DNA from: Chloroherpetonaceae bacterium
GTDB taxonomy: Bacteria > Bacteroidota > Chlorobiia > Chlorobiales > Thermochlorobacteraceae
Length of the DNA: 64,000 bases
NCBI GenBank assembly: GCA_033763895.1
Contig: JANRJQ010000004.1
Span: 310,001-374,000, forward strand
Direction of reading: 5' to 3'
The notes under the pieces are model-generated. The model saw only the letters and a list, made by a program, of their open reading frames with translations. It did not search any database and was not told the origin of the DNA. Shown here piece after piece: positions 24,404-56,040 of this stretch (position 1 is the first letter of the stretch; the number at the start of each line of letters is the position of its first letter). The position numbers and the translations under genes are program-made.

Positions 24404-24411
24404 ACCGAGAG

Positions 24412-25224
24412 TTACCGCACAAAGGTGATAGAACGTTGAATAATATTGCTTTTGGCACCGCTTTTATCAATTGCTTGATAAGAAAATGTTCGTGTGACGG
24501 AAGTGTTATCACTATTAATTTGAAGTGTTGCAGTAAAAACACTATCGGCAGCAGAGAAATCGCCACTTTGCCCATTGCGATCTCCGTCGTTCAAAAGTGA
24601 AAAAGTAATCTGTGGATTATCTAAGCGCGTGGCAAGAATCTCACGAATATCTGCAATCCCATTTGTATCAGTGGCTACTGCTGTAATTTGAAACACGCGC
24701 CGCCCTTCCGTTGGGGTTGGAATAAAAACCGTATCAGGAGAATTGACTTGAATGAGGACAGGTAAATAATTTATTCTTGCTCGTAAATTTACACTTCCAC
24801 GAGAATTTGAAAAACTAATTCCCTTTGATGAAAATGCCGATGCGACAAGCAAATAGCGTCCGGTTTGGCTTTTTGTCAATAGCACTGAAACTTCACCGGA
24901 AGCCCCTTTTCTGGATGATGAGAGCACGAGCGAAGAGGTTGCCAACACATCATCACCATCTTCTGAAATCAACGAGACCGTAATTGCCTCTGTTTCCAGA
25001 TTGGTTTCAACTGATACTTGAAAATCTACGCGAACCCTGCCACGACTATCAGGAACAAGTGAATCAAGATCTACATCGTTGGGTGTAAAGGAAAATTTCT
25101 GAATAGATGGTGCGAGTGCCAAACCTGAATCTTCACTAATTGGAACAGGCGTGCAAGCCTCTATCAATAAAGCAAGAGAAATCAAAAACAAAACCCACGC
25201 TTTCCTAAATAACAATCTCATCAT
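24412..25224 (-). CDS. lipoprotein of unknown function, Ig-like
   Basis: A 270-residue lipoprotein with lipobox at IEAC, lipidated C24. The mature part is beta-rich and looks like two tandem Ig/CARDB-like sandwiches. The second contains VTATDTNGIADIRE-like text and the acidic loop DGDRNGQSGDFSAADSVF, as in choice-of-anchor and chitobiase-like C-terminal domains. I do not recognise a family. Its start codon overlaps the stop of the PorV-like gene (TAATG), and the T9SS-sorted gene follows after 8 bases, so the three are one translational unit. Confidence 0.75.
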   Translation of the reverse strand: MMRLLFRKAWVLFLISLALLIEACTPVPISEDSGLALAPSIQKFSFTPNDVDLDSLVPDSRGRVRVDFQVSVETNLETEAITVSLISEDGDDVLATSSLVLSSSRKGASGEVSVLLTKSQTGRYLLVASAFSSKGISFSNSRGSVNLRARINYLPVLIQVNSPDTVFIPTPTEGRRVFQITAVATDTNGIADIREILATRLDNPQITFSLLNDGDRNGQSGDFSAADSVFTATLQINSDNTSVTRTFSYQAIDKSGAKSNIIQRSITFVR

Positions 25225-26300
25225 TAGAATTTTGCTCCCAAAGAAATAAAATTCGTTCCAAATCCAATGACCGGTTCAATCACAAAGGTGTAGTCTAAAG
25301 TGAGCATCGCCTTTTCAATCGGAAACGAAAATGAAAAACCTGCGGAGGGGCGTGCAAGTTCAAGGAAGTTGCTTCCTGAAATTGAAAGCTGATCGGCTCC
25401 GACTCTTATTGTGAAGGATTCGCTAATCCCAATAACCGCTCCAATCCTGATGAAACGGCTGCTTTGACTTTCTTCTATCGTCACAAACTCTTCGGTCGGA
25501 ATCCCGTTTTGCAATCCGCTCACTGGTGTTTTGCGTTCAAGATTCCATTTCTGCTCTTCAAATTCGCCGGTGATTCGAATAAAATCAAACCCTCCAATTT
25601 GATTTGTACCATAGCTAAATCCCAGTCTCAGTTGAATGGGAATGTTATCTGTCGTTTGTGTCCCATCAAGCCCATAAATTGTTGAAGAATCCCATTTGTA
25701 CTTCGCATTTAAATTTGAGAGAGACGCACCAAGGGTAAACGCCTGTGTTTCGGTGTTGATTAATCGATAAACAGCCCCTATATCAAACCCTAAAGAAAAC
25801 GCGTTTGGCAATTCTTGATAGAGTGATGAAAGGTAACCTCGTATGTTAAAACCCAAAGCTAGTTTTTCTGAAAAGCGATTTGCAAAAGAAACCATCAATA
25901 AGTTTTCCGAAACCGAAATCATTCCTTGTTCAGCCCCATCACTATTTCGTGTGTCTATATTTCCTACCCCCGAGTTAATGAATGAAATCGATAGCCCTGC
26001 GGTTGGACCCGCCTTTGTTGAAAATGAAAGAAAATTCAGTGAGCGATCCATTGCAAGCAACCCAAACGAAATCCCTCCTTGCAACCGAGAATTGTAAGCC
26101 ACAACGGCCGGATTATAATACCCTTGAGATTCACCTTCATCGATGATTGCAACTCCGGTGTTCCCTGCTGCAATGTTTTTTGCACTAAAGCCGAGCCTCG
26201 AAAAAGCTGCTGCAGCACCGGCGGTTTGACCACTTAATTCCAATTGAAAAAGAAGGGCAATAAAAGTGATGATGAGTATCCTTTTAGGAAGAATTGACAT
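25224..26300 (-). CDS. PorV/PorQ-family outer-membrane protein
   Basis: A 358-residue protein with signal peptide (about 1-24) followed by amphipathic beta-strands ending in FISLGAKF, a typical barrel end. The start of the mature part, SRLGFSAKNIAAGNTGVA followed by YYNPA, is the PorV/PorQ family hallmark. PorV is the T9SS outer-membrane shuttle that receives cargo after export; other members have undefined roles. Its neighbours are a lipoprotein and a T9SS-sorted protein, which fits a cargo-linked role. It begins an operon that reads into thyX. Confidence 0.85.
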   Translation of the reverse strand: MSILPKRILIITFIALLFQLELSGQTAGAAAAFSRLGFSAKNIAAGNTGVAIIDEGESQGYYNPAVVAYNSRLQGGISFGLLAMDRSLNFLSFSTKAGPTAGLSISFINSGVGNIDTRNSDGAEQGMISVSENLLMVSFANRFSEKLALGFNIRGYLSSLYQELPNAFSLGFDIGAVYRLINTETQAFTLGASLSNLNAKYKWDSSTIYGLDGTQTTDNIPIQLRLGFSYGTNQIGGFDFIRITGEFEEQKWNLERKTPVSGLQNGIPTEEFVTIEESQSSRFIRIGAVIGISESFTIRVGADQLSISGSNFLELARPSAGFSFSFPIEKAMLTLDYTFVIEPVIGFGTNFISLGAKF

Positions 26301-37578: not shown

Positions 37579-38430
37579 TTATTCTTTCACACCACCCATT
37601 GTTAATCCGCTTACTAAAAAGCGCGACAACGCAATGAATAAAATCACTACCGGGATACTAACCACTATCGCCCCCGCAGAATACATTCCCCACGCTACTT
37701 CCAAATCACTTTGAAATGATTTTAATCCCATTGGCAGTGTAAAAAGACTTGGGTCTTGAACTAGCACTGCCGCAACGAGATATTCACTCCAAGCCGACAT
37801 AAATGAAAACAATGCCGTTATCACTAAAGCAGGTTGCGCAAGCGGAAACACAATTTTCCAAAAGGTTTGTATTTCAGAACATCCGTCAATTCGTGCCGAT
37901 TCTTCAAGGCTTCTTGGAATTGTATCATAAAAGCCTTTCATCTGCCAAATGCAAAAAGGTAGCGCTGTTGCCGAATAAGCCACGATAAGCCCAGCATACG
38001 AATCATAAATCCCAAGCTGAATCAGCATAATAAAAAGGGGCAACAGGAGCATTGTCACAGGAAACATTTGAGTCGCAATCAAAATAATCATCCCCGAATC
38101 TCGCCCCCAAAATTTATAACGGCTGAACGCATAGCCTGCCGTTGATGCCAAAGCTACGCTGACCAAAGTAACCGTGAAACTTACAAGCATGCTATTCAGC
38201 ATCCATTTTGCAAATGGATGATCTCTAAATATGGCGATGTAACTATTGAAAGTTGCACCATCAGGTATAATCTCTAAAGAAGTTGAAAGTAATTTGTCTC
38301 CGGGCCTCAGTGAAATGGTAATCACTTGAAGGATCGGAAAAATTGAAAACAAACTAAATAGAATTAATACCGCATAAATGCCAACTTTACCAGCAGTTGA
38401 CACATCCCGAGGATTTTTTACTGTTGCCAT
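37579..38430 (-). CDS. ABC sugar importer permease, MalG-like
   Basis: A 283-residue inner-membrane permease with six membrane segments. The cytoplasmic EAA loop reads EESARIDGCSEIQTFWKI, then VFPLAQPAL, where the ATPase docks. The family is CUT1/MalG, which carries oligosaccharides such as maltodextrins. The frame extends to a TTG at 38487 inside the MalF-like gene; the ATG at 38430, one base after that gene's stop, gives family length and is preferred. It is last of the seven-gene reverse-strand run. No ATPase gene follows. Confidence 0.92.
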   Translation of the reverse strand: MATVKNPRDVSTAGKVGIYAVLILFSLFSIFPILQVITISLRPGDKLLSTSLEIIPDGATFNSYIAIFRDHPFAKWMLNSMLVSFTVTLVSVALASTAGYAFSRYKFWGRDSGMIILIATQMFPVTMLLLPLFIMLIQLGIYDSYAGLIVAYSATALPFCIWQMKGFYDTIPRSLEESARIDGCSEIQTFWKIVFPLAQPALVITALFSFMSAWSEYLVAAVLVQDPSLFTLPMGLKSFQSDLEVAWGMYSAGAIVVSIPVVILFIALSRFLVSGLTMGGVKE

Positions 38431-38431
38431 A

Positions 38432-39373
38432 TCAATAGACGCTTTGCGTGGCTTTTGTCTTGTGAATAAAATTCCATCCAAAAGCAAAAAGAATCGAGAA
38501 GATAATCAGTGAAAACGCTGCTGCATATCCGATTCTGAAATAATTCAAACCGACTTTATAAACCCAGCTAACAAGAATGTGTGTTTGATCGGAAGGCTCT
38601 CCACCGTTGCTAACTAACCACACCACATTAAAGTTGTTAAATGTCCAAATCGTACCCAAGGTGATTGCGGGAATCATCACGGGCTTGAGAAGGGGAATGG
38701 TAATATTGACCAATTTATCGTACCAATTTGCTCCGTCAATGTCAGCAGCTTCATATAAAGCATCAGGGATTGACTGCAAGCCACCCAATGCAACGATCAT
38801 CATAAAAGGAAACCCAAGCCAAATATTGGTGATCAGAGCAGCAGAAAAAGCACCCCATTCTGTATTTAACCATTGCACCGGTTCTAATCCGAATTGTACA
38901 AGAATTAGATTAACAGCGCCATATTCAGAATTAAATAAACCACGCCAATTTAGTGCAGTGATATACTGAGGAACTGCCCAAGGGAGAATTAAGATGACTC
39001 TAAACCATTCTTTTCCTTTGATGTTTTTATTAAGCAAAATGGCAAGAAAAACCCCAATCGTCACATGAAAAAACAGGTTAACGATCGTCCATAATATCGT
39101 TTTACCAAAAAACCAAAAGAATTTTGGATCCGTGAAAACGTTGATATAATTATCTAATCCTTTGAAACTCCAATCTCTGAAGTGCTCAAGGTTCATATTA
39201 CTGAAACTAACGAGCACATTATAGATAAATGGATAAAGGACAATTAAAGCCATTACAAAAAGCGACGGCGCTGCGTAGATATACGGAGTCCAATGAATTT
39301 TCTTAACCGATTGCATGAAGTCTCCTTTACTCGGCTCAGCAGAATTTTGAACTTGCGATATCGATTTTTCCAT
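38432..39373 (-). CDS. ABC sugar importer permease, MalF-like
   Basis: A 313-residue permease with six membrane segments. The EAA loop reads YEAADIDGANWYDKLVNI, then TIPLLKP. It is of the CUT1 type and partners the MalG-like protein. The first about 25 residues are polar and probably cytosolic. It starts with ATG 45 bases after the solute-binding lipoprotein gene. The substrate is inferred to be an oligosaccharide from the family and neighbouring carbohydrate-active genes. Confidence 0.93.
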   Translation of the reverse strand: MEKSISQVQNSAEPSKGDFMQSVKKIHWTPYIYAAPSLFVMALIVLYPFIYNVLVSFSNMNLEHFRDWSFKGLDNYINVFTDPKFFWFFGKTILWTIVNLFFHVTIGVFLAILLNKNIKGKEWFRVILILPWAVPQYITALNWRGLFNSEYGAVNLILVQFGLEPVQWLNTEWGAFSAALITNIWLGFPFMMIVALGGLQSIPDALYEAADIDGANWYDKLVNITIPLLKPVMIPAITLGTIWTFNNFNVVWLVSNGGEPSDQTHILVSWVYKVGLNYFRIGYAAAFSLIIFSILFAFGWNFIHKTKATQSVY

Positions 39374-39418: not shown

Positions 39419-40675
39419 CTATTGCTTCATTTCTTTAATCAGCTTTTGAGCCAGCTCCTGCATCTCTTTCGCCGCTTGCTCAGGCGTTTTGCTTCCATTC
39501 AGTACCGCTTGATAAGAGGGTCGCATTGAATCCCAAATCACTCTCATTTCGCTGACTACCGGCATCGCTCGGCCAACGAGGATTTGATCCATTGAGCCTC
39601 TTAAATTGTCATCGGCAAATGAAGCCATCTGTGCATAAGCTTCTTTTCTTGAAGGGATTGTTCCAACAGCTTTTGTGAATTCAAGCTCTACTTCAGGGCT
39701 GCATAAGAATTTTAATAAGTCAACAGTGGCTCGAAGTTTTTCGCCGCGTGTATTGATATTGATGCTATAGCCTCGAGGCGATACCATCGGGGCGGGATAA
39801 AGTCCTGTTTCTTCATTGAGCGGAATGCGCGCGATTCCAAAATTCATTCCGGCATTTTTGTAAGTTGCCCACGACCACGGGCCGTTAATAATCATAGCTG
39901 CACGGCCTTCCTTGAAGAGCGCATTAGCGGTTTGATAGTCACAGTCTGTTGGAATAATTTTATGCTTATCGCGAAGGTCAACGATAAGTTGTGCAGCCTT
40001 AACGGTTGCTTCTGTATTTAAGGTGGGTTCAAATTTTTCATTCATCACACCGCCACCAAAACTTCCTACAAATGGAATAAAGAAATAGGGTTCGGTGTAA
40101 TTCCACACAAGCCCGTAATTTCCGTCTTTGGTTAATTTTTTCCCCATCTCAATCATTTCTCCAATTGTCTTTGGCGGTACAGGAATAATGTCTTTGTTGT
40201 AAACCAAGCAAAGATGGTTGCCTACTTGATCGGCAATTTGATAAAGATGTTCGTTGAGATAAGTATTCGCGGGGAAAGGTTCAGTTATAAAACTGTCTAA
40301 AAATTCTTGTTCAAGCTTAACGCCATCGGGGAGTGAATCCATTTGGTGGATAATTTCTAACTGTGTGAACGGTCCTACCATATCAGAAGGCCCATACACC
40401 AACTCAGCCCCGCTACCACCCAGCGCGGCAATCATAAAGTTCGATCGAATCGGTTCTGTTTCGTAAAAAAGTTCGCGAAAAACATATCCTTTTTCTGCCC
40501 ATTGTTTTCCAATAGGGTCTTCTTTTGCAAATTTTTCTAAAGCAACATCCAAAACTTTCCTTTCTCCGGGCTGCATTTGAGTCCAGATAGAGATAATTTT
40601 TTCCCTATTGGATGAGCACCCACAAAGTGAAAGACACCAAAAAGTGATAATTAAAAAAATTCTGTACAGAGTCAT
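39419..40675 (-). CDS. ABC sugar-binding lipoprotein, MalE-like
   Basis: A 418-residue periplasm-facing lipoprotein, lipobox LCGC with C20. The mature protein is a type 1 extracellular solute-binding protein (SBP_bac_1) with PFVGSFGGGVMNEKFE-like text, AAMIINGPWSW and KFLCSPE near the C-terminus. It captures the sugar for the MalF/MalG permeases. The frame extends to an ATG at 40720, but that codon lies in the loop of an inverted repeat and would bury the signal peptide behind 15 residues; ATG at 40675 is preferred. Confidence 0.92.
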   Translation of the reverse strand: MTLYRIFLIITFWCLSLCGCSSNREKIISIWTQMQPGERKVLDVALEKFAKEDPIGKQWAEKGYVFRELFYETEPIRSNFMIAALGGSGAELVYGPSDMVGPFTQLEIIHQMDSLPDGVKLEQEFLDSFITEPFPANTYLNEHLYQIADQVGNHLCLVYNKDIIPVPPKTIGEMIEMGKKLTKDGNYGLVWNYTEPYFFIPFVGSFGGGVMNEKFEPTLNTEATVKAAQLIVDLRDKHKIIPTDCDYQTANALFKEGRAAMIINGPWSWATYKNAGMNFGIARIPLNEETGLYPAPMVSPRGYSININTRGEKLRATVDLLKFLCSPEVELEFTKAVGTIPSRKEAYAQMASFADDNLRGSMDQILVGRAMPVVSEMRVIWDSMRPSYQAVLNGSKTPEQAAKEMQELAQKLIKEMKQ

Positions 40676-40697
40676 TGGTAGGTGATTTAAATCGGAA

Positions 40698-40744
40698 AGT
40701 CCGAGTGAAACGGGTAACATTTTAATTTCCGTAACACTCGGACT
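40698..40744. repeat. stem-loop between the surface-protein and importer genes
   Basis: A 10-base perfect inverted repeat (AGTCCGAGTG at 40698-40707 and CACTCGGACT at 40735-40744) encloses a second 4-base pairing (ACGG at 40710-40713, CCGT at 40729-40732). It lies in the message between the T9SS-sorted protein gene (stop at 40782) and the MalE-like start (40675). No T-run follows on the transcribed strand, so partial termination, mRNA processing or 3'-end protection are all possible. Confidence 0.6.
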
Positions 40745-40781: not shown

Positions 40782-42359
40782 TTACTTAACCAGAGTCATC
40801 TTCATTGTCTTGTTGAACGAACCTGCTTGTAAACGATAGAAATATACACCGCTTGACATGTTGATTGCGTTGAAATTTTGGGTATAAGTACCAGCATTGA
40901 GTCTGGTATTGACCAATGTAGCAACTTTTTGACCTAAAATATTGAAGACTTCCAAACGAACATCGCTTGCTGCCGGAACAGAGAACTTAATCGATGTGCT
41001 TGGGTTGAATGGATTTGGATAGTTTTGGCTGAGTTCAAAGTTTTCAACTTTACGTTCATTTCCAACTGAAAGTCCGCCATCACCTTGACCAAAAATACCA
41101 ATAACGGTGTAGGTGTTTCCTGTAACTGTTGTGGCATTGTTAAAGTTGGCAATTTTGTTAACGCCAAATCCTGCTTCATTGTCCAAAATTCCGTTGCTTG
41201 GAGCAGGATTTCCAAAAATTCCGTTATAGAATACTGAATATTTGAAAGGACCAACCGTTAAGAAATTAACAGGGATAGTAACTTCATAAAAACCTGCACC
41301 AAATGTTGAACTCGGAACCATTTGTTCAAATCGTTTATCACTAAAGTTTGTAGCTGTAATACTAGATCTCAAAGTTGCTGTATCCCAACCGGGCCAAGAG
41401 CCAAAAACACCTTCTCCAGCGAGGTAAATACCATAAGGAATCCCATTAAGATTTCCAGTAAGTGCGCCTGCTGCACGGAGTGAGTCAATGCTGACATTGT
41501 TTAGGTCGCGTCTGCCGTTGGTGTTACAAACAAAACGAACAGTGAAACTCTTTGGTGTTTTAAATCCAATGTTGGTTGGAAGACCATCACCTGCACTGCC
41601 AACAACTAATTCAGTTGTCTCTGTGCCAAGACTAAAAGTGCTGTTGCTTCCTTGTCCCCAGCCACCGTCAAGAAACGGATTTGGGTTGCGGGTTGTATAG
41701 CCTTTAAATTTCCATTGGACTGTAGAATTTGGTGCCCCTGTAATTTGATAGACTCTTGAATAGGCCGGACCCAATCCTTCGATTGAAAGCGGTGCCGGTG
41801 TACCTGTCCACCCATTGAAAGAACCTGTTGCACCAATGCTATCGCCTAATGACTCATTAAACCCTGCATTTAAGAGTTCAGTCATATCCGCACGGAATTT
41901 AACTGGGCGTGTGATGTTTGCAACTCCAACTGAAGGATCATCATTCCAATATCTTGTTACTGAAATGGTATTCGCTACTGTGGTATCGGCTGCATTTTCT
42001 GCGAAATTAACCGTTCTGTCATTTCCATCTTCATAATTGATGGTTGTTCCTCTTACCCAAACGAATTTATAGGTAATAGTTTTGATATTTACTGCACCAA
42101 GTGCTGTTGCAGTAGGCCCGTAAAGTGAGTCGTTTGGGCTTGTGCTTCTGATACCACCGAGTCTATTTGCAGCTACCGGATTTCCAAGGCCAGATGCACC
42201 AGAAAAGATGAGTGCATATACGGTATCGGTTGTTGCAACAGTTCCCGCTTGAAGAAGTCTGCGCATATTAGCCGTAAACCGAACGGTATCTTGCTGCGCG
42301 AAAATTGTTGGCGCTGCTACCATAAGTGCAACCAACAAGGTTAATATTTTTTTGTACAT
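40782..42359 (-). CDS. T9SS-sorted protein with carbohydrate-binding-like repeats
   Basis: A 525-residue secreted protein with signal peptide (about 1-21, ending at FAQ). Three similar units each open with a strand such as VRFTANMRRLLQAG, VKFRADMTELLNAG or VRFVCNTNG. They include motifs like GATGSFNGWTG and GEGVFGSWPGWDT that recall starch-binding CBM folds. The C-terminal 80 residues (NYPNPFNPSTSI to KMTLVK) are a T9SS type A sorting domain. It is expected on the cell surface and probably binds an alpha-glucan or related glycan. It lies between the PorV-like gene and the MalE-like gene. Confidence 0.82.
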   Translation of the reverse strand: MYKKILTLLVALMVAAPTIFAQQDTVRFTANMRRLLQAGTVATTDTVYALIFSGASGLGNPVAANRLGGIRSTSPNDSLYGPTATALGAVNIKTITYKFVWVRGTTINYEDGNDRTVNFAENAADTTVANTISVTRYWNDDPSVGVANITRPVKFRADMTELLNAGFNESLGDSIGATGSFNGWTGTPAPLSIEGLGPAYSRVYQITGAPNSTVQWKFKGYTTRNPNPFLDGGWGQGSNSTFSLGTETTELVVGSAGDGLPTNIGFKTPKSFTVRFVCNTNGRRDLNNVSIDSLRAAGALTGNLNGIPYGIYLAGEGVFGSWPGWDTATLRSSITATNFSDKRFEQMVPSSTFGAGFYEVTIPVNFLTVGPFKYSVFYNGIFGNPAPSNGILDNEAGFGVNKIANFNNATTVTGNTYTVIGIFGQGDGGLSVGNERKVENFELSQNYPNPFNPSTSIKFSVPAASDVRLEVFNILGQKVATLVNTRLNAGTYTQNFNAINMSSGVYFYRLQAGSFNKTMKMTLVK

Positions 42360-42472: not shown

Positions 42473-43513
42473 TTAAAACTCCATTCCAATGGCAAACCAC
42501 TGTGGTGCGTTTAGCCTTCCATAAGTTTGGTAAGTATAGTCAAATCGTATTGCAAAACCGTTTAATTCGTACCTTATACCGGCACCAACTGTTAACCCTT
42601 TTTCGGATTCTTCTTCAAACAGTGCATTATATCCAGCCCGAAGGAAAAGAATATTTTTCCAAGCGTATTCCGTACCGAAACTTAAACTTTGTGCGTTATC
42701 ATTTGGGATATTGGTATCCATTACCAAAGTCCACCTTGTGGCATCATTTCGAATAAGGTCATAAGCTGTACCAATTCTGAAATTGAGCGGCAAATCAAAG
42801 CCATCAGTTACTAACCGTGCTGGCACATTAGAATTAACACCGCTTTCGCTTCCTCCAGTTTGATCATAATTTACGGTCAACCCTTCGCCTTCTAATCTCA
42901 TTTTTGATCCGAAATTAGTGACACTTGCCCCTAAACGAAGACCATTTGGTAATAAACCGGTATCAAACAAGAATCCCACATCAATCGCAATTCCTTGCGC
43001 AGAAGTTCGGTAAATGGTTTGGTTTATCAACTTTGCCGAAATCCCAATTGAAAATTGGTCTGTGAGTTCTTTTGCCCAAGTAATTTGAGCGACTAAATCT
43101 GAAGCGCCAAACTGTTCTCCTGTGCCATCTTCAAGGTCAATGGTTGTAACTTCCATTTTTCCATAATCGAGGGATGTCACAAAAACACCAAAAGTTCCAA
43201 AACCGCCGGCAGGTAAACTCGCCCCGGCTGAATTAATTGAAGTGTTTACGAGCCATTGGCTATGGTTAAATCCGACTTGAACGCGGTCGATTTTCGCAAT
43301 CCCGGCAGGATTCCAATAAAGTGCCGAAATGTCGTCGGATTGAGCGGCAAAAGCGCCACCCATCGCTATCGAGCGAGCACCAATGCCAATCCCTAAAAAT
43401 TGCGCAGCGGTTGTGCCAAATTTTGATTGAGCAATAAGTGGCGCATTTGTAATCCAAATCCCTGTAATGAGAAGGACGACCCAGAAGTTTGTAATCCGTT
43501 TTTTCATAATCAT
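42473..43513 (-). CDS. PorV/PorQ-family outer-membrane protein
   Basis: A 346-residue protein with signal peptide (about 1-28) and the family hallmark FLGIGIGARSIAMGGAFAA followed by YWNPAGIA. The remainder is amphipathic beta-strands ending in FAIGMEF. It is probably an outer-membrane barrel related to the T9SS shuttle PorV. It lies between two T9SS-sorted protein genes in the seven-gene unit, so a role in attaching or guiding those proteins is reasonable. It differs from the PorV-like protein at 25224-26300. Confidence 0.87.
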   Translation of the reverse strand: MIMKKRITNFWVVLLITGIWITNAPLIAQSKFGTTAAQFLGIGIGARSIAMGGAFAAQSDDISALYWNPAGIAKIDRVQVGFNHSQWLVNTSINSAGASLPAGGFGTFGVFVTSLDYGKMEVTTIDLEDGTGEQFGASDLVAQITWAKELTDQFSIGISAKLINQTIYRTSAQGIAIDVGFLFDTGLLPNGLRLGASVTNFGSKMRLEGEGLTVNYDQTGGSESGVNSNVPARLVTDGFDLPLNFRIGTAYDLIRNDATRWTLVMDTNIPNDNAQSLSFGTEYAWKNILFLRAGYNALFEEESEKGLTVGAGIRYELNGFAIRFDYTYQTYGRLNAPQWFAIGMEF

Positions 43514-43543: not shown

Positions 43544-46500
43544 TTATTTGATTACGGCAAACTTGCCGGTCTTTGTCCCAACACCGGGCGCATCTACATG
43601 ATAGAGATACACACCATAAGCGATATCTAAATTTTCAGAACTTTTTAAGTCCCATTCAACTAAAGAAGTTGGATAATTAAAAGTACCTAAACCAGAAGAT
43701 TCTCGATCTCTTTGCCCAAAGAGTTCATTAGAAGGGTCATCTGCTTTAAGAGTTCGTATTAATTCACCTCTAATTGTATAAATTCTAATTGTTGATTTTA
43801 ATGGGACGTTTTTGAAAAACAACTTCCTAGAGGATCTGCCTCTTGAATCTTTTCCAATTAAATTTGTTTCTGCAGTATTCGTAACTATGTATGGATTTGG
43901 GAAAACGCGAATATTTTCTAGATTATTTTTTATTCTTTCTTGGTCTTGAACTAGAGGTTCAATATTTAAAGTAAACTTATCTCCATTTAAAAATGGTTTA
44001 TTCAGTTTAATAAGTATCGTATCACCATTTTCTGGAACTGTATATCTGGTGGCACTTGCAATTTGAATTCTCCAAGAAAATAGAGTATCCAATACTGGTC
44101 TTTTTCCATTTTGGTCTAAATCGAGTTCCAAGATTGATAAATTGATAGCTGCTTTTCCAATTAAACCACGGTCTGGACCTCCTAAATTTCTATCTAAAAT
44201 AAATCTCTTCTTCTTTTTATTTGTTAGGTCATAAATGAAGAAATTCGTTGAATAGGAAGGAACTAAAATGGGATTGTTGTTTACTAAAACAGTAGCTGAA
44301 TCACTTGAACTTCCTGTTTGAATGATTAATGCATAGTCAGCTGGAGCTTTTATTGACAATCCTTTGATTGAAGATAATAATGGTTCCGAAGTCATTGAAG
44401 TAACGACTGCCACTGTATCACCATTGTTAATTCTACCATAGGGTCTAGGATTTTTAAATCTCCATATTGCTGTGTCAAGGTTTGTTTGAGGAGGGTTTTT
44501 TACAGTAAAATAAACTCCCAATTTATTGACAACTTCAGTTTCATCACTTGCCCTATAAACAAATTTACCCTCTTGATCCTTTTCGTAAGAGGAAATCTCA
44601 TACATAGGTCTCACAAAGCGTGTTCTTACATAACCACTTCGATGTAAAATAGTATCAATTGAGTTTGCATCTGCTTTATCAATAATTCTAAAATAACTTG
44701 TAAATGGACCTTTACTTTCTATAGGATCATTAATATCCTTAAGACCATTATTATTATTGTCCAAGGTATCGCTTGATGTGTCAACAAATTCTAATTCAAT
44801 CTTTTTTGGCCTGTTAAACTTTCGATTGTTTAGTACAGTGTATTCCACACTTCCATTCCCTTTGTTATTTAACGCTGGAGTTAATCCTCCTTTAGAATTA
44901 TTTGGATCATTGATACCACTTTCTACCGGAGAGGGGACAACGGAAACTGCGTTTGGAGGCAATCGCAACACACCCCTGCTGTCAAAAAAACCTTTAATAG
45001 CATTTTCTGAAGGAAATATTGCAGCATTATAGTCTGGTCTGTTTAATGAATCGAGAGGAATAAAACCTCTTGAGTAATTTGCAACTGCATAATAATAAGT
45101 TTTTCCATTTTGCACATCGGTATCCGTTAATGTATGAACTAATCCAGTTTCATTTCCCCTATAAAAACTAACTCCTCTAGCTTGATTTAATAGAGAACTG
45201 CCAACCATAGGAAAATAACCAAGTATTCCATTAATTTTGTCGAATTGTGCAATAGGAACTGTCCTAAATCCAATTTCACCCTGTCCACCTGAGATTAATC
45301 TTGAATCGTTAAATGAAGGGTCTGTGCTTTTGTATATTTTATAACCTTCAAACGTAAAAGCATCTTCATACAATGTGGTATCAGTCGGACTTTTTGCAAG
45401 CTTTCTGTTGATAAACCTATCAAAGTAGGTTTCACCTTCGCTAGTCCAATACAACGTTACTTTTTTATCACCCGGTACTGCACTCAAAAGCGGAGAAGGC
45501 AAGGGAGGACCTGTAAAACGGTAATTGTTATTATAAATTTCTTGAACTATATCAATATTCCTAAGTAATTCTTGTGCATTATCTCCATAAACAACAGATA
45601 CTGAAAAGCGTTCTATTTGACCTCTCTTTAATGGAAAATACCCTGTTCCATAGGTGTAATCCCCGTCTTTAGGAGTTACATCCAATGAATCAAATAATCC
45701 GGGGGTAGTAATTCTCCATAAATCATCAGAATTCCCCATTCTTGGTTGGCCAGAAAGGTCAAATTTGTAACTTGACAACCCGATTTGATCAGATTCTCTT
45801 ATGTCTGTCGCATCAAATTGAGATTCACCTGCTGTTGGTCTCCCGTCTGATTCACCTAAATCTTGAGATGAAGGCGAACCGTCGGAACCTAAGTCATCTA
45901 AAAAAGTCCAATCTCCATTGTTATCAATACCATCATCTCTCCTTTCGTCTATCATAGGAAAACGCAAAGGATCTAATAAATTTTCACCATTTATTGCAAG
46001 TTGTATATAGTTAACAAATCTTAATGGAGGTAATTCTTTAGGAACTGATCTTCCGGGATTTAATAAATCTGCCTCGAACTGAATTCTGCGAAAATGTAAT
46101 CTATAATCCTCATCGATAATCCCATTCAAATTATCATCTATAAGATTTGAAGAAACTTCTTTTAAAGTATCCCCAACACCAACTTGAAAAATAATTCCCT
46201 GTGACTCCAACAAAATTTTTCCTGATTGAGGTATCTGATAAGCTGCTCTTTTAGGTACGACGATAAATTGATTATAACCTGCGCTTACCATTTCCGGGGT
46301 ACGAATTAAAGTATCTTTTATTGTAATTACGAAATCCCCTGCTTTTAATACCCTAATTGCATTTTCTCCTCTAGCTCTAAAACTTGAATTGTCGATTGAA
46401 TATTCAAACTCATAAAAATCATAACCAGTATTCGAAATTTGACCAACTGGAATTGACTTAAATTGATCTGGGATTCCTTTATTTGATACGCTGTAAGGAC

Positions 46501-47668
46501 CTTGACTAATTGCATTCCAATCATCATCGTTGTCAATCCCATCAAACGGATTTCCGGGACTTTCTAAAAAAGCTACACCAACTAAACCAACATTTCCAAC
46601 CCAATTACTTTCCCTAATATTTGAAGGATTATAGGTATAAGTAACAGATCTTCTTTGGTCAAAAACGGATACATTTGATGGAGCACCAGCCTGTCCACCA
46701 ACTGCAGTACCTACTACAGTTCCAAACACTACTTTGTTATAATCATAATCACTAATGTTTTTAACATCATAAACTAAAAAAATATTGTCTTGAGCTAAAA
46801 AACTTGACCATTGCAATCCGCGGGCCTTTACTTGAAGTCCAACACCGAATCTATTCGGTTCATCAGACCGAGGTTGAAATCCAAACTCTTCAAACCATCT
46901 TTTATCAGTGGCATCATCAAACACAAAGTAACTTTCTTGATCTGCATTAAATACATTTCTCCCAAAATATCCATTCCATTCTGCTTTTCCGGTTGCAGGG
47001 TCAATCCAAGTAGGTTGATCTGGCCATTGATTTGGCCAAGTAGAAGGATCCGTACTAATTGCAGGGGACTCCCCAATTGGATTAAAAAAACCGGTAATTG
47101 GTTGTAAACCTTCAAATTGACCATTTACAATTCTATATCCTCCACTTCTTGGACCTTGTTGGGTTGTCACATACTTAGCCCTTATTACCACTTCTACGGC
47201 TGGTTTTGAATCGACAAGAATATTTTTGATTGAAATTAGATTAGGGTTATTTCGAGGTACCACAACATTTGTTCTATTATCTCTTAATCTTGTGCCCCTA
47301 GTAGTGTCGGATGCATTATCTGAAGAGCCCAAAATGATTGTGTCTTTAAATTCTCTTTCAATCCCAAAGAGTGTTTGTAAATCATATATGTATTCATTTT
47401 GCTGTTCTTTCCAAGCGAGGGATGGTAAAAGAGGAGCAACATAAGTACGACTTCCAACCAACCCATCATTTTGGAACTTTGTTAATACCCGATTTCCATT
47501 ATGAAACCCGACTCTTCTAAAAGCTCTCCCACTTGGTAAGTTTGTTGGTACATTCCCTGATTGCGCAAAAATATCAATTGGTGTAAATGTAACTATAAAT
47601 AAAACCACTAATTGGATTGATCTTGAAACTAAGTAATCTTTAAATAATTGAATAAACTTCATAAACAT
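43544..47668 (-). CDS. very large T9SS-sorted surface protein of unknown function
   Basis: A 1374-residue secreted protein with signal peptide (about 1-36, ending at FAQ) and a C-terminal T9SS-type sorting segment (VFPNPYIVT to GKFAVIK). I do not recognise the bulk. A fibronectin III-like segment contains VTLYWTSEGETYFDRF and EGYKIYKSTDP. Four acidic loops of the D-x-D/N-x-N-G type recall calcium-binding TSP3/dockerin-like loops (DGIDNDDDW, DDNLNGIIDED, DGIDNNGDW, LDNNNNGLKDIND). The frame extends to TTG at 47683; ATG at 47668 is preferred. The gene is AT-richer than its neighbours. It lies directly after the TonB-dependent receptor, where SusD would sit in a Sus locus. Confidence 0.85.
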   Translation of the reverse strand: MFMKFIQLFKDYLVSRSIQLVVLFIVTFTPIDIFAQSGNVPTNLPSGRAFRRVGFHNGNRVLTKFQNDGLVGSRTYVAPLLPSLAWKEQQNEYIYDLQTLFGIEREFKDTIILGSSDNASDTTRGTRLRDNRTNVVVPRNNPNLISIKNILVDSKPAVEVVIRAKYVTTQQGPRSGGYRIVNGQFEGLQPITGFFNPIGESPAISTDPSTWPNQWPDQPTWIDPATGKAEWNGYFGRNVFNADQESYFVFDDATDKRWFEEFGFQPRSDEPNRFGVGLQVKARGLQWSSFLAQDNIFLVYDVKNISDYDYNKVVFGTVVGTAVGGQAGAPSNVSVFDQRRSVTYTYNPSNIRESNWVGNVGLVGVAFLESPGNPFDGIDNDDDWNAISQGPYSVSNKGIPDQFKSIPVGQISNTGYDFYEFEYSIDNSSFRARGENAIRVLKAGDFVITIKDTLIRTPEMVSAGYNQFIVVPKRAAYQIPQSGKILLESQGIIFQVGVGDTLKEVSSNLIDDNLNGIIDEDYRLHFRRIQFEADLLNPGRSVPKELPPLRFVNYIQLAINGENLLDPLRFPMIDERRDDGIDNNGDWTFLDDLGSDGSPSSQDLGESDGRPTAGESQFDATDIRESDQIGLSSYKFDLSGQPRMGNSDDLWRITTPGLFDSLDVTPKDGDYTYGTGYFPLKRGQIERFSVSVVYGDNAQELLRNIDIVQEIYNNNYRFTGPPLPSPLLSAVPGDKKVTLYWTSEGETYFDRFINRKLAKSPTDTTLYEDAFTFEGYKIYKSTDPSFNDSRLISGGQGEIGFRTVPIAQFDKINGILGYFPMVGSSLLNQARGVSFYRGNETGLVHTLTDTDVQNGKTYYYAVANYSRGFIPLDSLNRPDYNAAIFPSENAIKGFFDSRGVLRLPPNAVSVVPSPVESGINDPNNSKGGLTPALNNKGNGSVEYTVLNNRKFNRPKKIELEFVDTSSDTLDNNNNGLKDINDPIESKGPFTSYFRIIDKADANSIDTILHRSGYVRTRFVRPMYEISSYEKDQEGKFVYRASDETEVVNKLGVYFTVKNPPQTNLDTAIWRFKNPRPYGRINNGDTVAVVTSMTSEPLLSSIKGLSIKAPADYALIIQTGSSSDSATVLVNNNPILVPSYSTNFFIYDLTNKKKKRFILDRNLGGPDRGLIGKAAINLSILELDLDQNGKRPVLDTLFSWRIQIASATRYTVPENGDTILIKLNKPFLNGDKFTLNIEPLVQDQERIKNNLENIRVFPNPYIVTNTAETNLIGKDSRGRSSRKLFFKNVPLKSTIRIYTIRGELIRTLKADDPSNELFGQRDRESSGLGTFNYPTSLVEWDLKSSENLDIAYGVYLYHVDAPGVGTKTGKFAVIK

Positions 47669-47705: not shown

Positions 47706-50700
47706 TTAGAAAAATATGCTTAAACCAGTTAAAATCTGTCTAGGTGCTGAAAATAATTGGGGTTGATTTAAATATTGGGATGAACTGTTAATTGACGATT
47801 CAACTGAAACATTTCTCAGTATTAAATCTGGAGTTAATTGAGCAAATGGATAATTTCCTGTTTGATTCTCTGCATCAAGCACATTATAAACTTGGAAAAA
47901 AACTCCAAAACTAGTGTCTCCAAATTTAAAGTTTTTTTGAGCTCTGAAATCTAAAGTAAAAGTTGTTTCTCTTCTTAGTGTATTCGTTACAATCTCTCCC
48001 CTACTACCTCGTGTCAAAATTTCAAATGGAGCATTTAAATCAGGAGTAAATGGAAACCCACTACCATAACGACCTATTGTACTAAATTCCCACCCATCAA
48101 TCTGAAATATGCCAGTAACATTGAAGGTATGTCTTTGATCCCAATCCAGAGTAATTAATTGGGTTGGTAATGGTGAATTTGAGGACAAAGCAACGGCGGC
48201 AGAAGCAGGGTCTGAAGCATTGCCTTGTGCTATTTGAAAAGTATAATCTAAAGAAAGGTTAAAATTTTGTGACAATCGCTTATTAATTCCAATTACTATT
48301 CCTCTTACTAAAGCGTAATCTGTATTTACAAATTGCGTATACGACCCTCTATCAAAGTACTCCCTAAGGAACGCACTTCCATTTAAGTTTCGAATATCAT
48401 TAAAGTAGAGTGCTACATCAACACCAATATCTTCGCCGAACTGCTGTTGAAGTCCAACCTCGCCCTTAATTGTTTTTTGTGGTTTTAAATCAGCATTCCC
48501 ATAAGGTCCACTGATAGCAGCACTAGGGTCTCTTCTGAAGAATGGATTTCGATATAAAAATTCAAAATTGGGGATTTGGAACACATGACCGTAGAAAAAC
48601 CTCAAAATTCCTTTATCTGTAATCGGAAAAGCGACTCCAAGGCGTGGACTAAATTGCCATTTTACAGTTGCAGATCTGAAATTGTCTGATAAGAGCCTTT
48701 GCCCATTTTCAACATAAATTGGTAACACATTTCTTGTGTAAGGAATGATGTTTCCATTGGCGTCTTTTGGGAGATTTTCAGGTCTTAATGGATCATAAGG
48801 AGAGGGATCACTCGGGTCGATGGGCACAGTTCCGTCTGGGCTAAAAAGATCAAAACGAACACCGAGATTTACAATAAAGTTATTGATTTCAAATTTGTTT
48901 TGAATGTAGGCAGCAAACTCCATTGGTCTTCGTGTGTATTCATCATAACCTGCCTCACCAAGTTCCGCGCGCCTTATTGCAGGGATTCCTGAAAATAAAG
49001 ATGACTCATCAAGAAACAATGGTGTACGTTGTAAATCTAATGTATGTAATTTGACATCGAGCCCCATCTTTACAAGATTGTTGTTGTCAACTTGCGACGA
49101 GATATCACCTTTAATATTTATAGTTTGCGTTGAACGGCGGAAGTGATCAGTTCCTAATCCAGTCAACAAAAATTCAAGTCCAAATTGAGCTTGACCCGGA
49201 GAAAAACTTCCTCCCACAGTCTGATCATTAATTCCGGCCATTAAATATCTTTGGTCAAGCGGATCTTCATAGAGATAACTTTGCTCTTTTGAATACAAAT
49301 AAGAGACACCAATGTTATAAAAAGTAGAGCTGGATAGTGTGTGAGTAGCATTAACAATGCCGGTGTATGAAGTTCTAAAGTTTTGTGGGATTCCGAATGG
49401 GGAAAGGCTTCTTCCGAAGTCAAAATTTTGAAACTTTTCATCAGTTACCATCAATTGCCCTGATACCTTAAAGGAGCCTGAGGGTCGCCAAGTGAGTTTA
49501 GACATACCGGAAAACTTGCGATAAGGATTCATAACAACGAAATCACCGTTTCCTGTTGCATAAGGCTTAAAATCGTCATTCGATGGACGAAGAGCTTCAT
49601 AAACCCTTATTCCTTCTGTGAAATCGTTAAAGTTTATTGGAACTGCAAAATAGCTATCACCACTCGGGTTAATGGTTTGAGGAAATCTAGTTCTAAACTG
49701 TTCTATTAAATCAATAAAATTCTCATTTGAAAATTCACCCGGCAGAATTCCAATAAAGCCACCGATTTGGTTATTGGTAAAAATAGAAGCCGGCAAAATA
49801 TCACCTGCTTGGTAAACATTTCTACCATAAAAGCGACCTTCATCTTCATACGACCGAGCATTAAGGAAGAAGGTCAATTCATCTCCAAATCCGGGGATTG
49901 CACCGCTTAAGCTGCCTTGAAAATCGCGCACACCGAGCCGGGCAAAATTATTGACATTTTGAAAGGTTTCAGTTCTTGGGGTTGCATAGCCTCCCAAAAA
50001 CGATTGGAATGATCCGCTGAGCTTAGAACCCCCTTCTTTGGTTACAATATTTACTACAGCAGAAAGTGCTTGCCCATATTCCGCGTTGTATCCTCCGGTT
50101 AAGAGTTCTAATTCTTGAATCGCTTGACCTTCAACACCGATATTATTGACACCACGGCTTTGATTTCCGTCATAGACATCATTCACTGAAAATCCATCAA
50201 CGATATACATTGCTTCACCACGGCGACCGCCACGGAACGTTCCGCCAACGGCACCACCTTGAAGTTCGAGCACTTGGCTTGGATTTTGAATTGGAAGGGA
50301 TTGAATTTCTTCTGAACCAACAGCCGCCCGGGTAGCGGTCATATCTTTAATTACAACCGGCCGTTCAGCCGTAATAACCACTTCTTCTGTGGTGACTTCG
50401 GTTGTCGAAAGCTTAAAATCTGCTCTGGCTGTTAAATCTATACTAACTTTAAGTCCAGAGATAGATTTTGGTTGGTAGCCAACATAAGATGCAGTTACCG
50501 TGTAGGCACCGGGCGGGATATTAAGGATGGTGTAATTACCTTCAACATCTGAGCGAGCCCCAAATTTTGTTCCTTCCAAACGGACTGTTGCACCAATTAA
50601 AGGATCCCCGGTTGTAGCATCGATTATAGTACCTGCTATTTTTCCCGTAGTTCCTAATACAGACTTTTTGTCTTCTGCCTGCAACACTCCTGTTCCAACA

Positions 50701-50783
50701 CACAATGCAAAAAGAAGGAAAAGGATGTTGTGAAGTCGGTGTGCAACAGTAATTGCCCTTTGGCTTTGTAACAATGACATCAT
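47706..50783 (-). CDS. TonB-dependent receptor with carboxypeptidase-regulatory-like domain
   Basis: A 1025-residue outer-membrane transporter. After the signal peptide a carboxypeptidase-regulatory-like domain (GKIAGTIIDATTGDPLIGATV to NIPPGAYTVTASYVGY) precedes the plug, with GEAMYIVDGFSVNDVYDG. The barrel ends in TGLSIFF. It imports a ligand using TonB energy. The layout is like SusC but no SusD follows; the next gene encodes the 1374-residue T9SS-sorted protein. The frame extends to GTG at 50816; ATG at 50783 (MMSLLQSQ) gives a plausible signal peptide and is preferred. It is the first gene of the unit. Confidence 0.92.
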   Translation of the reverse strand: MMSLLQSQRAITVAHRLHNILFLLFALCVGTGVLQAEDKKSVLGTTGKIAGTIIDATTGDPLIGATVRLEGTKFGARSDVEGNYTILNIPPGAYTVTASYVGYQPKSISGLKVSIDLTARADFKLSTTEVTTEEVVITAERPVVIKDMTATRAAVGSEEIQSLPIQNPSQVLELQGGAVGGTFRGGRRGEAMYIVDGFSVNDVYDGNQSRGVNNIGVEGQAIQELELLTGGYNAEYGQALSAVVNIVTKEGGSKLSGSFQSFLGGYATPRTETFQNVNNFARLGVRDFQGSLSGAIPGFGDELTFFLNARSYEDEGRFYGRNVYQAGDILPASIFTNNQIGGFIGILPGEFSNENFIDLIEQFRTRFPQTINPSGDSYFAVPINFNDFTEGIRVYEALRPSNDDFKPYATGNGDFVVMNPYRKFSGMSKLTWRPSGSFKVSGQLMVTDEKFQNFDFGRSLSPFGIPQNFRTSYTGIVNATHTLSSSTFYNIGVSYLYSKEQSYLYEDPLDQRYLMAGINDQTVGGSFSPGQAQFGLEFLLTGLGTDHFRRSTQTINIKGDISSQVDNNNLVKMGLDVKLHTLDLQRTPLFLDESSLFSGIPAIRRAELGEAGYDEYTRRPMEFAAYIQNKFEINNFIVNLGVRFDLFSPDGTVPIDPSDPSPYDPLRPENLPKDANGNIIPYTRNVLPIYVENGQRLLSDNFRSATVKWQFSPRLGVAFPITDKGILRFFYGHVFQIPNFEFLYRNPFFRRDPSAAISGPYGNADLKPQKTIKGEVGLQQQFGEDIGVDVALYFNDIRNLNGSAFLREYFDRGSYTQFVNTDYALVRGIVIGINKRLSQNFNLSLDYTFQIAQGNASDPASAAVALSSNSPLPTQLITLDWDQRHTFNVTGIFQIDGWEFSTIGRYGSGFPFTPDLNAPFEILTRGSRGEIVTNTLRRETTFTLDFRAQKNFKFGDTSFGVFFQVYNVLDAENQTGNYPFAQLTPDLILRNVSVESSINSSSQYLNQPQLFSAPRQILTGLSIFF

Positions 50784-53178: not shown

Positions 53179-55224
53179 TTATACTCTCTTCAAAATCACG
53201 CCTGTTTTTGGTGGTAAAAAAATCACAACACCGCTTGAAGTTTTCCCTTGAATGACTCTTTTTTGAATAGAACTTTTTTTGGTTTGCTTCACATTCATTT
53301 TTCCCACCTTCACATTGGTTTGGTAAGATAGCTCAACCTCAATGTTGTTAATCATATCCCACCATTTTCCATCAACATTAATAATTACTTTTTCCGTGAT
53401 ATCACCGTTATTGATTGCAACAATGAAGTGTTCATCGTCACTTTCCGAATTTCCGCTTAGGCGTCTTTCAAAGGCAAATATTTTTTTTGCGTCATCTTTA
53501 AGAATGGTTCTGTAAGAACCAAACTGAAGCGCCGGAGAATGGTTTCGAATTGAAATCAGGCTCTTATACCAAAGCAGAAGATTATTATCGGGCTTGACTT
53601 TATCGGGAGTACGGGTTGAGCCGTCGGGGTTGAATTTTTCGGGTTTATAGGCAATATCATCCCAAATCATCGGCTTTCGGTCACAAGGGTCATTGGCTCC
53701 CCACATTCCAACTTCATCGCCATAATAAATCATCGGAGCGCCAATATAAGTCATTTGAAAAAGCGCAATCAGTTTTTGAATTATAATTTCATCGTTGTTG
53801 GGTTTGCGAACTTTGAAGGCTTTATTACTGCCTTTCGAGAGTTCAAAATATTTCCCGAAATCTCGATAGTTTCCAATATCTCGGTTTACAATTTGTGTTG
53901 CGAGACGAGCGGCATCATGACTATCCATAAGGTTTTGCATACCGTAAGCGACCTCTTCCGGAAAAGATTCTCGAAGTTGTTTCAACTTTTTATCGAACTC
54001 ACTCACTGAAATTCGAAAGGGCTTTGAGATGAAGAAGTCAAAAACTGAAAATGCAAAATTGTAATTCATCACCGCATCAAATTCATCACCCAAGAGGTAA
54101 GGCTTTTGGGCCTCGGGAGTATCAATGACTTCTGCTGTGAGGTAGGCTTCGGGGTTAATGCTTTTCACAAACCCCCGCCACCGTTTCCAAAAAGGATGTC
54201 CAACACAAAAAGCAACGTCCAATCGCCAGCCATCAATACCATTTGCACGATTGCCGTTTGGCGACATCCAGCGCTCGGTTGATGCATAGATATATTGTTT
54301 TAGAGACTCGGGGTAATCCCCATCGATTTCATTGAGTTCTGGGAGTTCTTTAACGCCAAACCATCCGGTATAATCAAATCCTTTTCCATTGGAATCGCCA
54401 AAATTCTTGATGATAAACCAATCCTTGAATCGAGAATTTTCACGGTTGATTTTGACATCCTTAAAAGCAAAACTTCGAATGCCAAGATGATTAAAAACGC
54501 CATCAAAAATGATGCGAATCCCCTTTTGATGGGCTTCTTCTATCAATTTAAGCGCTAATTTATCGGCCTCTGTCCAAACCCAAGTGGTTGGATCGTCAGG
54601 GGTTTCGGAGTTCATAAGTTCGCGGTCACGACTTGGTGATGGTCCAAAGTTCGGGTCAATATGGTGATAGAGCATTCCATCATACTTGTGGGAAGAGGGG
54701 GCTTCAAATATTGGATTCAAATAAATGGCGGTTATCCCTAAGTCTTTTAAGTAATCGAGTTTATCAATGATTCCTTGTAAATCACCTCCGTACCTACGGC
54801 GTTGAATATTGAACCAAATGTTCTTACCATTCTTTTTTTCATATGGTTGAAGTTCGTACCAATCACTTCCCCAAGGATGGATTTGCCACGGCGAAAGCGT
54901 ATCATGCGGGTATGCTCCGCTGAGAGTTGAAAGTGTTGGGTCATTGGTGGGGTCTCCATTTCGAAACCGCTCAGGGAAGATTTGATACCAAATTGCGCTT
55001 TTTGCCCATTTTGGAATTGAACCCGAAAGACCATTGCGTTTACTTTCCGAAGTTTCTAAAGACTGTGAAGAAAGTGGAAGTGGCGAAAAAAAATAAACAA
55101 AAAGAAAAATCGAAAATAAAATCGATTGTTTTGATTTTATTCTTAATTGATGGCTTTGCAACTGTAGAGGAACCTTCTTAAAACTGCCTCTGATATGATG
55201 TTGAATGAGGTTCAAAAAAAACAT
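53179..55224 (-). CDS. secreted GH13 alpha-amylase-family glycosidase
   Basis: A 681-residue GH13 enzyme acting on alpha-1,4-glucans or maltodextrins. Conserved region I is DGVFNH at 241-246, region II has nucleophile D336 (in GWRLDVAF), region III the acid E365 (in TAEVID), and region IV H436-D437. The opening SAIWYQIFPERFRNGDP and HKYDGMLYHHIDP match neopullulanase-like members. An N-terminal hydrophobic segment (about 35-55) predicts export. There is no T9SS sorting domain. The frame extends to TTG at 55239; ATG at 55224 is preferred. lptC follows after 3 bases. Confidence 0.9.
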   Translation of the reverse strand: MFFLNLIQHHIRGSFKKVPLQLQSHQLRIKSKQSILFSIFLFVYFFSPLPLSSQSLETSESKRNGLSGSIPKWAKSAIWYQIFPERFRNGDPTNDPTLSTLSGAYPHDTLSPWQIHPWGSDWYELQPYEKKNGKNIWFNIQRRRYGGDLQGIIDKLDYLKDLGITAIYLNPIFEAPSSHKYDGMLYHHIDPNFGPSPSRDRELMNSETPDDPTTWVWTEADKLALKLIEEAHQKGIRIIFDGVFNHLGIRSFAFKDVKINRENSRFKDWFIIKNFGDSNGKGFDYTGWFGVKELPELNEIDGDYPESLKQYIYASTERWMSPNGNRANGIDGWRLDVAFCVGHPFWKRWRGFVKSINPEAYLTAEVIDTPEAQKPYLLGDEFDAVMNYNFAFSVFDFFISKPFRISVSEFDKKLKQLRESFPEEVAYGMQNLMDSHDAARLATQIVNRDIGNYRDFGKYFELSKGSNKAFKVRKPNNDEIIIQKLIALFQMTYIGAPMIYYGDEVGMWGANDPCDRKPMIWDDIAYKPEKFNPDGSTRTPDKVKPDNNLLLWYKSLISIRNHSPALQFGSYRTILKDDAKKIFAFERRLSGNSESDDEHFIVAINNGDITEKVIINVDGKWWDMINNIEVELSYQTNVKVGKMNVKQTKKSSIQKRVIQGKTSSGVVIFLPPKTGVILKRV

Positions 55225-55356
55225 AAATGATAAATACAATGAAATCTGAATAATGCATTTTGAGGTTTGGATATAAGGCTGTTGCTTTATAAATCTAAGA
55301 AGGTTTTATCATTTTCCTACCATTTGCAAAAAGTTTTCAATTGCTGAATCAAGGGT

Positions 55357-56040
55357 ATGCGCCGAATATTTTTCATTATGCTTTCGCTTTTTATCTTTAT
55401 TGGGTTGGTTCTAAGCATCTCGCTTGTTTCAGTCTATCGTGCAGCTACCTATTATCATCAATTTTATCAACTAAATGAACCGCCGTCTTTTTCTACGACA
55501 TTGGTTTTGGGTCATAAGCTTGAGCACGATTTACCCAGCGATATTTTGCTTTCAAGACTTGATAAAGCATTTGACCTTTACCGTAACGATTATACAGAGC
55601 GCATTATTGTTTCAGGAGGAATTTTAGGAGAAAATCAAAAATCTGAAGCAGAAGTCATGAAGGCAATTCTCGTTGAAAAAGGTGTACCAGAAGAAAATAT
55701 TTTTATGGAAGCCCGTGCTTCAAGTACCATCGAAAACTTTCAATTTTCAAGAGTTATTTTGGATAGTCTAAAAGAACAACAGGTAATTCTTGTAACAAGT
55801 GAATTTCACGTTTTCCGCGCCCAACTGATTGCTGATAATAATGGGATTTATGCAGTACCTGTTCCAAGCAACAGTCCTGACGAAGGGCTATTTCAATTGC
55901 TGCGCGAATCAATATTATCCGTTTTCTATCTTTCAATTCAACAGTGGGGAATCGATGAACACCCAAACCCGATACACCCTTCATTCAAGCCAGAAAAAGA
56001 AATGATGGCAATGCAAAAGTTCATTAAAACACAGCACTGA
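55357..56040 (+). CDS. YdcF/ElyC/SanA-like DUF218 protein
   Basis: A 227-residue protein with an N-terminal membrane segment (about 5-26). The DUF218 fold contains TTLVLGHKL, DILLSRLDKAFDLY, IIVSGGILG, SEAEVMK, EARASSTIENFQFSR and LVTSEFHVFRA. Members take part in envelope functions such as undecaprenyl-carrier recycling, but the reaction is not settled. It is divergent from the GH13 gene and overlaps the convergent TonB-receptor gene at its 3' end by 17 bases. Confidence 0.9.
   Translation: MRRIFFIMLSLFIFIGLVLSISLVSVYRAATYYHQFYQLNEPPSFSTTLVLGHKLEHDLPSDILLSRLDKAFDLYRNDYTERIIVSGGILGENQKSEAEVMKAILVEKGVPEENIFMEARASSTIENFQFSRVILDSLKEQQVILVTSEFHVFRAQLIADNNGIYAVPVPSNSPDEGLFQLLRESILSVFYLSIQQWGIDEHPNPIHPSFKPEKEMMAMQKFIKTQH

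Follow-up and report, generated by a model that had tools for sequence, protein, structure and literature searches.

A 1374-residue surface protein encoded at positions 43544-47668 of a 64,000-nucleotide stretch from a Chloroherpetonaceae bacterium (contig JANRJQ010000004.1; hereafter the window) belongs to a conserved gene triplet, in which it is preceded by a TonB-dependent receptor and followed by an outer-membrane barrel of the PorV/PorQ family. This protein, which we call the giant, is probably the binding or capping subunit, at the cell surface, of a three-part TonB importer, in which it would be held by a PorV/PorQ-family barrel of its own. The direct observations behind this reading were the conservation of the triplet, the co-inheritance of its members, the link to the type IX secretion system (T9SS), a separate class of C-terminal domain (CTD) paired with the barrel, and the glucan context of the locus. 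No paper describing this triplet was found among the open-licence literature.

The receptor-giant-barrel triplet

A TonB receptor was present beside the giant in all 60 loci taken from its distant relatives (one locus per genome), and the order receptor-giant-barrel was kept in 58 of them; the order was receptor-barrel-giant in one locus (L121) and the contig stopped before the barrel in the other (L153). The same order occurred in 17/17 loci of a second clade, whose members match the giant profile mainly over its C-terminal part. Intergenic gaps in the triplets were typically below 30 bp, and in the window the giant gene begins 37 bp downstream of the receptor gene. The sequence-only reading of this DNA had noted the place directly after a receptor, which was borne out, and had named homologues that are never beside such a gene as the finding that would speak against it; the reverse was found in both sets of distant loci. 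Apparent exceptions at L127, L128, L133, L151, L154, L010, and L051 were rejected as gene-calling artefacts caused by antisense open reading frames (ORFs), and a possible receptor fusion of 1581 aa at L151, most likely an N-terminal over-extension, was not used.

Receptor, giant, and barrel are inherited as a unit. Tree distances of 67 triplets were correlated at 0.92 for receptor and giant, 0.89 for receptor and barrel, and 0.85 for giant and barrel, with permutation maxima of 0.31 or less, these correlations including a contribution of the species signal. Four genomes carried two triplets each, and for each of the three proteins the two types split alike. The earlier proposal of a surface partner filling the role of SusD is favoured by the adjoining receptor in all distant loci, the agreement of the trees (r = 0.92), and the glucan context; the PorV/PorQ-family barrel had been missed in it, and the α-glucan genes had not been used.

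The pairing of CTD and barrel was counted on all proteins with a giant-type CTD in eight complete genomes (n = 70), all of them being listed to avoid a selection of top matches. A PorV-family gene was the next one, on the same strand and within 600 bp, in 53/70 cases, the chance at a random position being 0.13%, and 12 more of these proteins had such a gene within 12 kb. Partners of CTD proteins accounted for 53 of the 112 PorV-family genes of these genomes. The CTD proteins lacking an adjacent barrel form types of their own, namely relatives of about 700 aa, with the barrel 6.6-8 kb downstream, and tandem arrays in genome G313. The former type is also present in the window genome (L014), where, in addition, a receptor lies between protein and barrel.

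This pairing is the tightest rule seen, and it would also suit a surface unit made of the giant and its PorV-like barrel, acting as a scaffold or as a dock for the secreted amylase and starch binder, which would be co-regulated with the receptor and stand outside the import complex. The T9SS-tailed glycan binders encoded downstream (48/54) and the ordinary-tail relatives found away from receptors (L013 and L058) agree with such a unit. The receptor directly adjoined the giant throughout the 77 distant loci, however, and the correlation between receptor and giant was the highest of the three pairs, so that we consider a separate unit unlikely, although less so than the other alternatives.

In a profile search (E ≤ 1e-20) of an evenly drawn set of genomes of the phylum, relatives of the giant were found in 150 of 393 genomes and 92 of 175 genera, a single genome having up to 46 candidates at first look. 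Named relatives came from metagenome-assembled genomes (MAGs), including a Melioribacteraceae MAG, Bacteroidetes MAGs, and a Candidatus Neomarinimicrobiota MAG. The giant of G083 (L046:7300-11134) and the receptor of G307 (L114) were each split in two ORFs, reflecting sequencing error or decay. Genes upstream of 47 triplets coded for PPIC-type isomerases in 19 cases, LacI regulators in eight, and GH13 enzymes in two; the PPIC/SurA-type isomerases may act as chaperones of the module's barrels.

Type IX secretion and the C-terminal domain

In the class of the window genome, SprA was present in 10/86 genomes, and giants occurred in nine of the 10 SprA-positive and in none of the 76 SprA-negative ones; across the phylum sample, each of the 150 genomes with giants was among the 312 positive for SprA, the lists of both proteins having been matched by eye and the counts being phylogenetically non-independent. 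The window genome itself contains SprA (1302 bits) and PorU (923 bits), and its best PorV-family match is likely the canonical PorV. The signal peptide of the giant ends at A35-Q36, with Q36 conserved in 93% of homologues, and neither a lipobox nor a cysteine was found at this end.

The CTD carries the motifs VPNPY...GxR...WDL...GKFAxIK and gave weak matches to PorZ, PorU, and Por_Secre_tail models, the nearest curated ones being PorZ and PorU. The window giant did not match the models of the ordinary type A tail (TIGR04183/PF18962), for which several relatives scored below threshold. A CTD profile built from 16 giants was run on 55 giants, all but one locus outside the building set; the median was 155 bits, whereas the ordinary-tail profile gave at most 12.8 bits on the same proteins. 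Conversely, the ordinary-tail profile gave a median of 123 bits on 67 proteins with such tails, on which the giant profile gave no more than 21. Judged by these profile scores, the CTD of the giant forms a class distinct from ordinary T9SS tails. The T9SS sorting end announced by the sequence-only reading is thus real, although of a non-standard class and not of the ordinary type A.

The CTD of PorU stays on PorV and that of PorZ on PorQ, both uncleaved, and it has been suggested that cognate PorV-like barrels shield CTDs from cleavage (2023 review, PMC10202324). Docking of this kind is the proposed mode by which the giant would be retained. The barrel of the window did not reach the NCBIfam equivalog cut-offs for PorV, PorQ, and PorV2 and matched FadL/Toluene_X in Pfam (E 2e-11). 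This last match would fit a barrel that is itself a channel related to FadL-type transporters, served by the giant, the TonB receptor importing something else; such an arrangement is very improbable in our view, since by NCBIfam the barrel belongs to the PorV/PorQ family (213 bits), those members that have been studied dealing with T9SS cargo (PMC10202324), and the downstream genes indicate polar glucans rather than hydrophobic substrates.

Other CTD and barrel genes were seen in the same genome. At L162:2501-9315, a PorV-like gene comes directly after the gene of a PorU-like CTD protein of 1891 aa. A second possible CTD-barrel pair lies in the window at 22790-26300, made up of a protein of 537 aa, with matches to PorZ/PorU models in its CTD (2e-9), and a possible partner of the PorV family at 25224-26300, on the same strand and two genes off. 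SprA and PorU are encoded in this genome together with an ordinary SusC-SusD pair (L063:1296-6148; L060; L155). Chlorobiota have been described as lacking SusCD and SprA (PMC12611786), and the window genome is an exception to this statement if its class is Chlorobia.

Sequence and predicted structure of the giant

In line with the sequence-only reading, in which most of the protein matched nothing known, Pfam, NCBIfam, and PDB searches with the giant, including a profile search, gave no family match. The giant and 15 relatives had no match to SusD in Pfam or NCBIfam models. Stray matches of the family to DUF6502 and to spumavirus Gag were discarded as chance, only the CTD matches to PorZ/PorU being recurrent. 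The ORF runs for 1374 residues from ATG and would have 1379 if an upstream TTG were used.

AlphaFold2 (AF2) models, computed on 70 sequences, were confident and β-rich for residues 37-1236 (pLDDT 83.6, pTM 0.78) and for residues 37-725 (pLDDT 89.3, pTM 0.90). Foldseek retrieved nothing from the PDB at E ≤ 1e-3 with either model. The possibility that the giant is itself a SusD was rejected, the β-rich model being incompatible with a helical tetratricopeptide repeat (TPR) fold and both a lipobox and a SusD sequence match being missing.

Four acidic loops had been described earlier as D-x-D/N-x-N-G. All four are present where they had been placed, although only two fit the strict pattern D-x-[DN]-x-N-G (DDNLNG and DNNNNG), the other two being DGIDND/NxD variants; a further strict match at residue 1183 was absent from that list. 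Three strict motifs were thus observed in the giant against 0.1 expected from shuffled sequence. In an alignment with 74 homologues, loops 1-3 ranked among the most conserved sites (D376 92%, D379 96%, D381 92%, and D383 91% in loop 1; D511 97% and D519 85% in loop 2; D582 100% in loop 3) and kept the EF-hand/TSP3-like pattern D-x-D/N-x-D/N-G-x-x-D; loop 4 was not conserved in this way, being confined to relatives from the class of the window genome. The acidic loops may hold structural calcium. The fibronectin type III (FnIII)-like segment, also claimed before, is plausible, with strands of this type modelled around residues 728-866 and many fibronectin-type chains in the list of weak Foldseek matches, although the Pfam fn3 search gave no match.

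The large β-rich multidomain build, the FnIII-like part, and the acidic loops could also belong to a surface enzyme or to a structural protein resembling an S-layer protein or adhesin, its place beside the receptor being historical. We regard this as improbable, because no enzyme family was matched, about one in two sampled genera keep the position, and co-inheritance with the receptor is ill-suited to a stand-alone structural protein. The coordinates of the features of the giant and of the surrounding genes are collected in Table 1.

Table 1. Positions in the window of the triplet genes, the parts of the giant, and the genes of the glucan region.
Feature	Position	Strand	Basis
TonB-dependent receptor, triplet gene 1	47706..50783	-	PF00593 E 2e-21, CarbopepD_reg_2 E 8e-20 (Pfam)
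Giant surface protein, 1374 aa	43544..47668	-	Intact ORF from ATG
PorV/PorQ-family outer-membrane barrel, triplet gene 3	42473..43513	-	NF033709 E 6.5e-63, 213 bits vs. cut-off 90
Signal peptide region of giant, residues 1-36	47561..47668	-	Translation; A35-Q36 conserved
N-terminal β domain, residues 37-725	45494..47560	-	AF2 model
Acidic loop 1, residues 374-386 (PFDGIDNDDDWNA)	46511..46549	-	Family-wide
Acidic loop 2, residues 509-521 (LIDDNLNGIIDED)	46106..46144	-	Family-wide
Acidic loop 3, residues 577-587 (RDDGIDNNGDW)	45908..45940	-	Family-wide
Acidic loop 4, residues 968-981 (TLDNNNNGLKDIND)	44726..44767	-	Only in relatives of the same class
FnIII-like segment, about residues 726-870	45059..45493	-	Model strands and weak Foldseek matches to FnIII chains
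C-terminal domain, about residues 1250-1374	43547..43921	-	T9SS-type CTD of a separate class
T9SS type A secreted protein	40782..42359	-	Por_Secre_tail E 1.4e-10; related to CBM20-bearing proteins downstream of other triplets
MalE-like periplasmic binding protein	39419..40720	-	NF007011 E 3.9e-43, under equivalog cut-off
MalF-like permease	38432..39373	-	NF008232 E 9.8e-49, under equivalog cut-off
MalG-like permease	37579..38487	-	NF008231 E 1.4e-48, under equivalog cut-off
GH13 α-amylase-family enzyme	53179..55239	-	PF00128 E 3.8e-56
Second TonB receptor of the glucan region	56024..58633	-	Plug E 7e-12
T9SS-tailed GH13/CBM48 enzyme, presumably surface	58850..61726	+	PF00128 E 8e-19, Por_Secre_tail, CBM_48

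Glucan context and proposed role

Receptor, giant, barrel, T9SS type A protein, and the MalE/F/G-like genes form one same-strand run with short gaps. Because of the amylases and the MalEFG-like genes around the triplet, the region reads as an α-glucan utilisation locus, and the two GH13 genes together with the MalEFG-like transporter suggest that maltodextrin is most likely the substrate here. The genes directly downstream of 54 triplets encoded T9SS tails in 48 cases, CBM20 in 30, CBM48 in 12, and CBM53 in eight. The T9SS type A protein of the window is homologous to this group (best E 2e-40 with a distant member); its own CBM20 score was below threshold, so the claim of starch binding is drawn from its homologues. 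Other triplets have other neighbours. A GH2 gene lies beside the triplet at L053, and the window genome contains a second complete triplet (L012), with a giant 44% identical to that of the window, which adjoins a candidate FucP-type sugar transporter (by eye; major facilitator superfamily by Pfam), a galT-like gene (by eye), and a further T9SS-tailed protein. Given these differences, the module is probably general and its substrate specific to each copy.

In the importer that we favour, the giant would be made with a Sec signal peptide, cross the outer membrane via T9SS (SprA), and stay at the surface through binding of its CTD to a PorV/PorQ-family barrel of its own, with no cleavage by the sortase PorU and no attachment to lipopolysaccharide. 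The β domain of residues 37-725 would lie over or beside the TonB receptor and bind or cap the substrate, a role modelled on that of SusD for SusC and of BtuG for BtuB. We infer a physical complex of the three proteins, with the CTD retained, the substrate bound by the giant, and a movement of the latter as a lid. The surface amylase would cut starch, held by the T9SS protein related to starch binders, and the oligosaccharide would be taken up by receptor and giant, a MalEFG-type ATP-binding cassette (ABC) transporter completing the import.

Several observations weigh against an importer of this kind. Joint regulation alone could account for the conserved gene order. Two tandem arrays of G313 (C1:2537305-2548704 and 1742484-1755259) hold four CTD-bearing relatives each and apparently share one PorV-family gene. 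The N-terminal region of the giant is shared by proteins with an ordinary type A tail and no adjoining receptor (L013:7250-10009 and L058:1445-3925), and hence this domain also works elsewhere. An ordinary SusC-SusD pair exists in the same genome. Finally, the weak Foldseek top list of the N-terminal model, which is not significant and serves as a hint only, consisted mostly of carbohydrate-active enzymes (dextran dextrinase, cyclic glucan synthase, GH38, GH94, GH149, PL26, LacZ, and mutarotases). Many of these enzymes contain a mutarotase-like β-super-sandwich.

Compared with known systems, the locus resembles SusC-SusD of Bacteroides in having a TonB receptor adjoining a large surface partner, together with GH13 enzymes and starch-binding proteins, and it probably does the same job, the capture and import of oligosaccharides. 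In contrast to SusD, with its helical TPR fold, lipid anchor, and about 550 residues, the giant is β-rich, ends in a T9SS-type CTD, and has about 1374 residues; the set also includes a PorV-family barrel, and the receptor reached only 64.7 bits with the SusC/RagA model TIGR04056, far under its cut-off of 368. The BtuB-BtuG complex of Bacteroides, which is stable, indicates that other folds can serve as partners of TonB receptors (PMC10404256). It resembles the present system in its non-SusD surface partner, whereas BtuG is a lipoprotein for vitamin B12 without a T9SS domain or a PorV-like barrel. As in PorU-PorV and PorZ-PorQ, a T9SS cargo is paired with a PorV/PorQ-family barrel (PMC10202324), and an uncleaved, docked CTD may be expected for the giant as well; PorU and PorZ process other cargo, however, whereas the giant lacks their domains and is tied to a TonB receptor. 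The PorP/SprF barrels likewise serve specific T9SS substrates, those with type B CTDs (PMC10202324), but the CTD type is different, gliding adhesins are among the substrates, and no TonB receptor belongs to the set.

TonB importers with surface partners were already known; here the partner has a T9SS domain and its own PorV-like barrel. More tentatively, and with somewhat less than even confidence, the triplet may represent a further architecture of TonB importers, parallel to SusCD, whose cap, a T9SS cargo, would at no time be released but stay docked by its uncleaved CTD on a dedicated PorV-family barrel, a secretion shuttle having been turned into a permanent transporter subunit. Neither Pfam nor NCBIfam contains a family model for the module, which occurs in 92 of the 175 sampled genera and is present in several copies per genome. 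If our reading is true, it would amount to a second route of glycan uptake in the phylum, beside SusCD, and would give a function to about half of the PorV/PorQ-family paralogues in the genomes counted; the suggestion that cognate PorV-like barrels protect T9SS CTDs (PMC10202324) would become directly testable.

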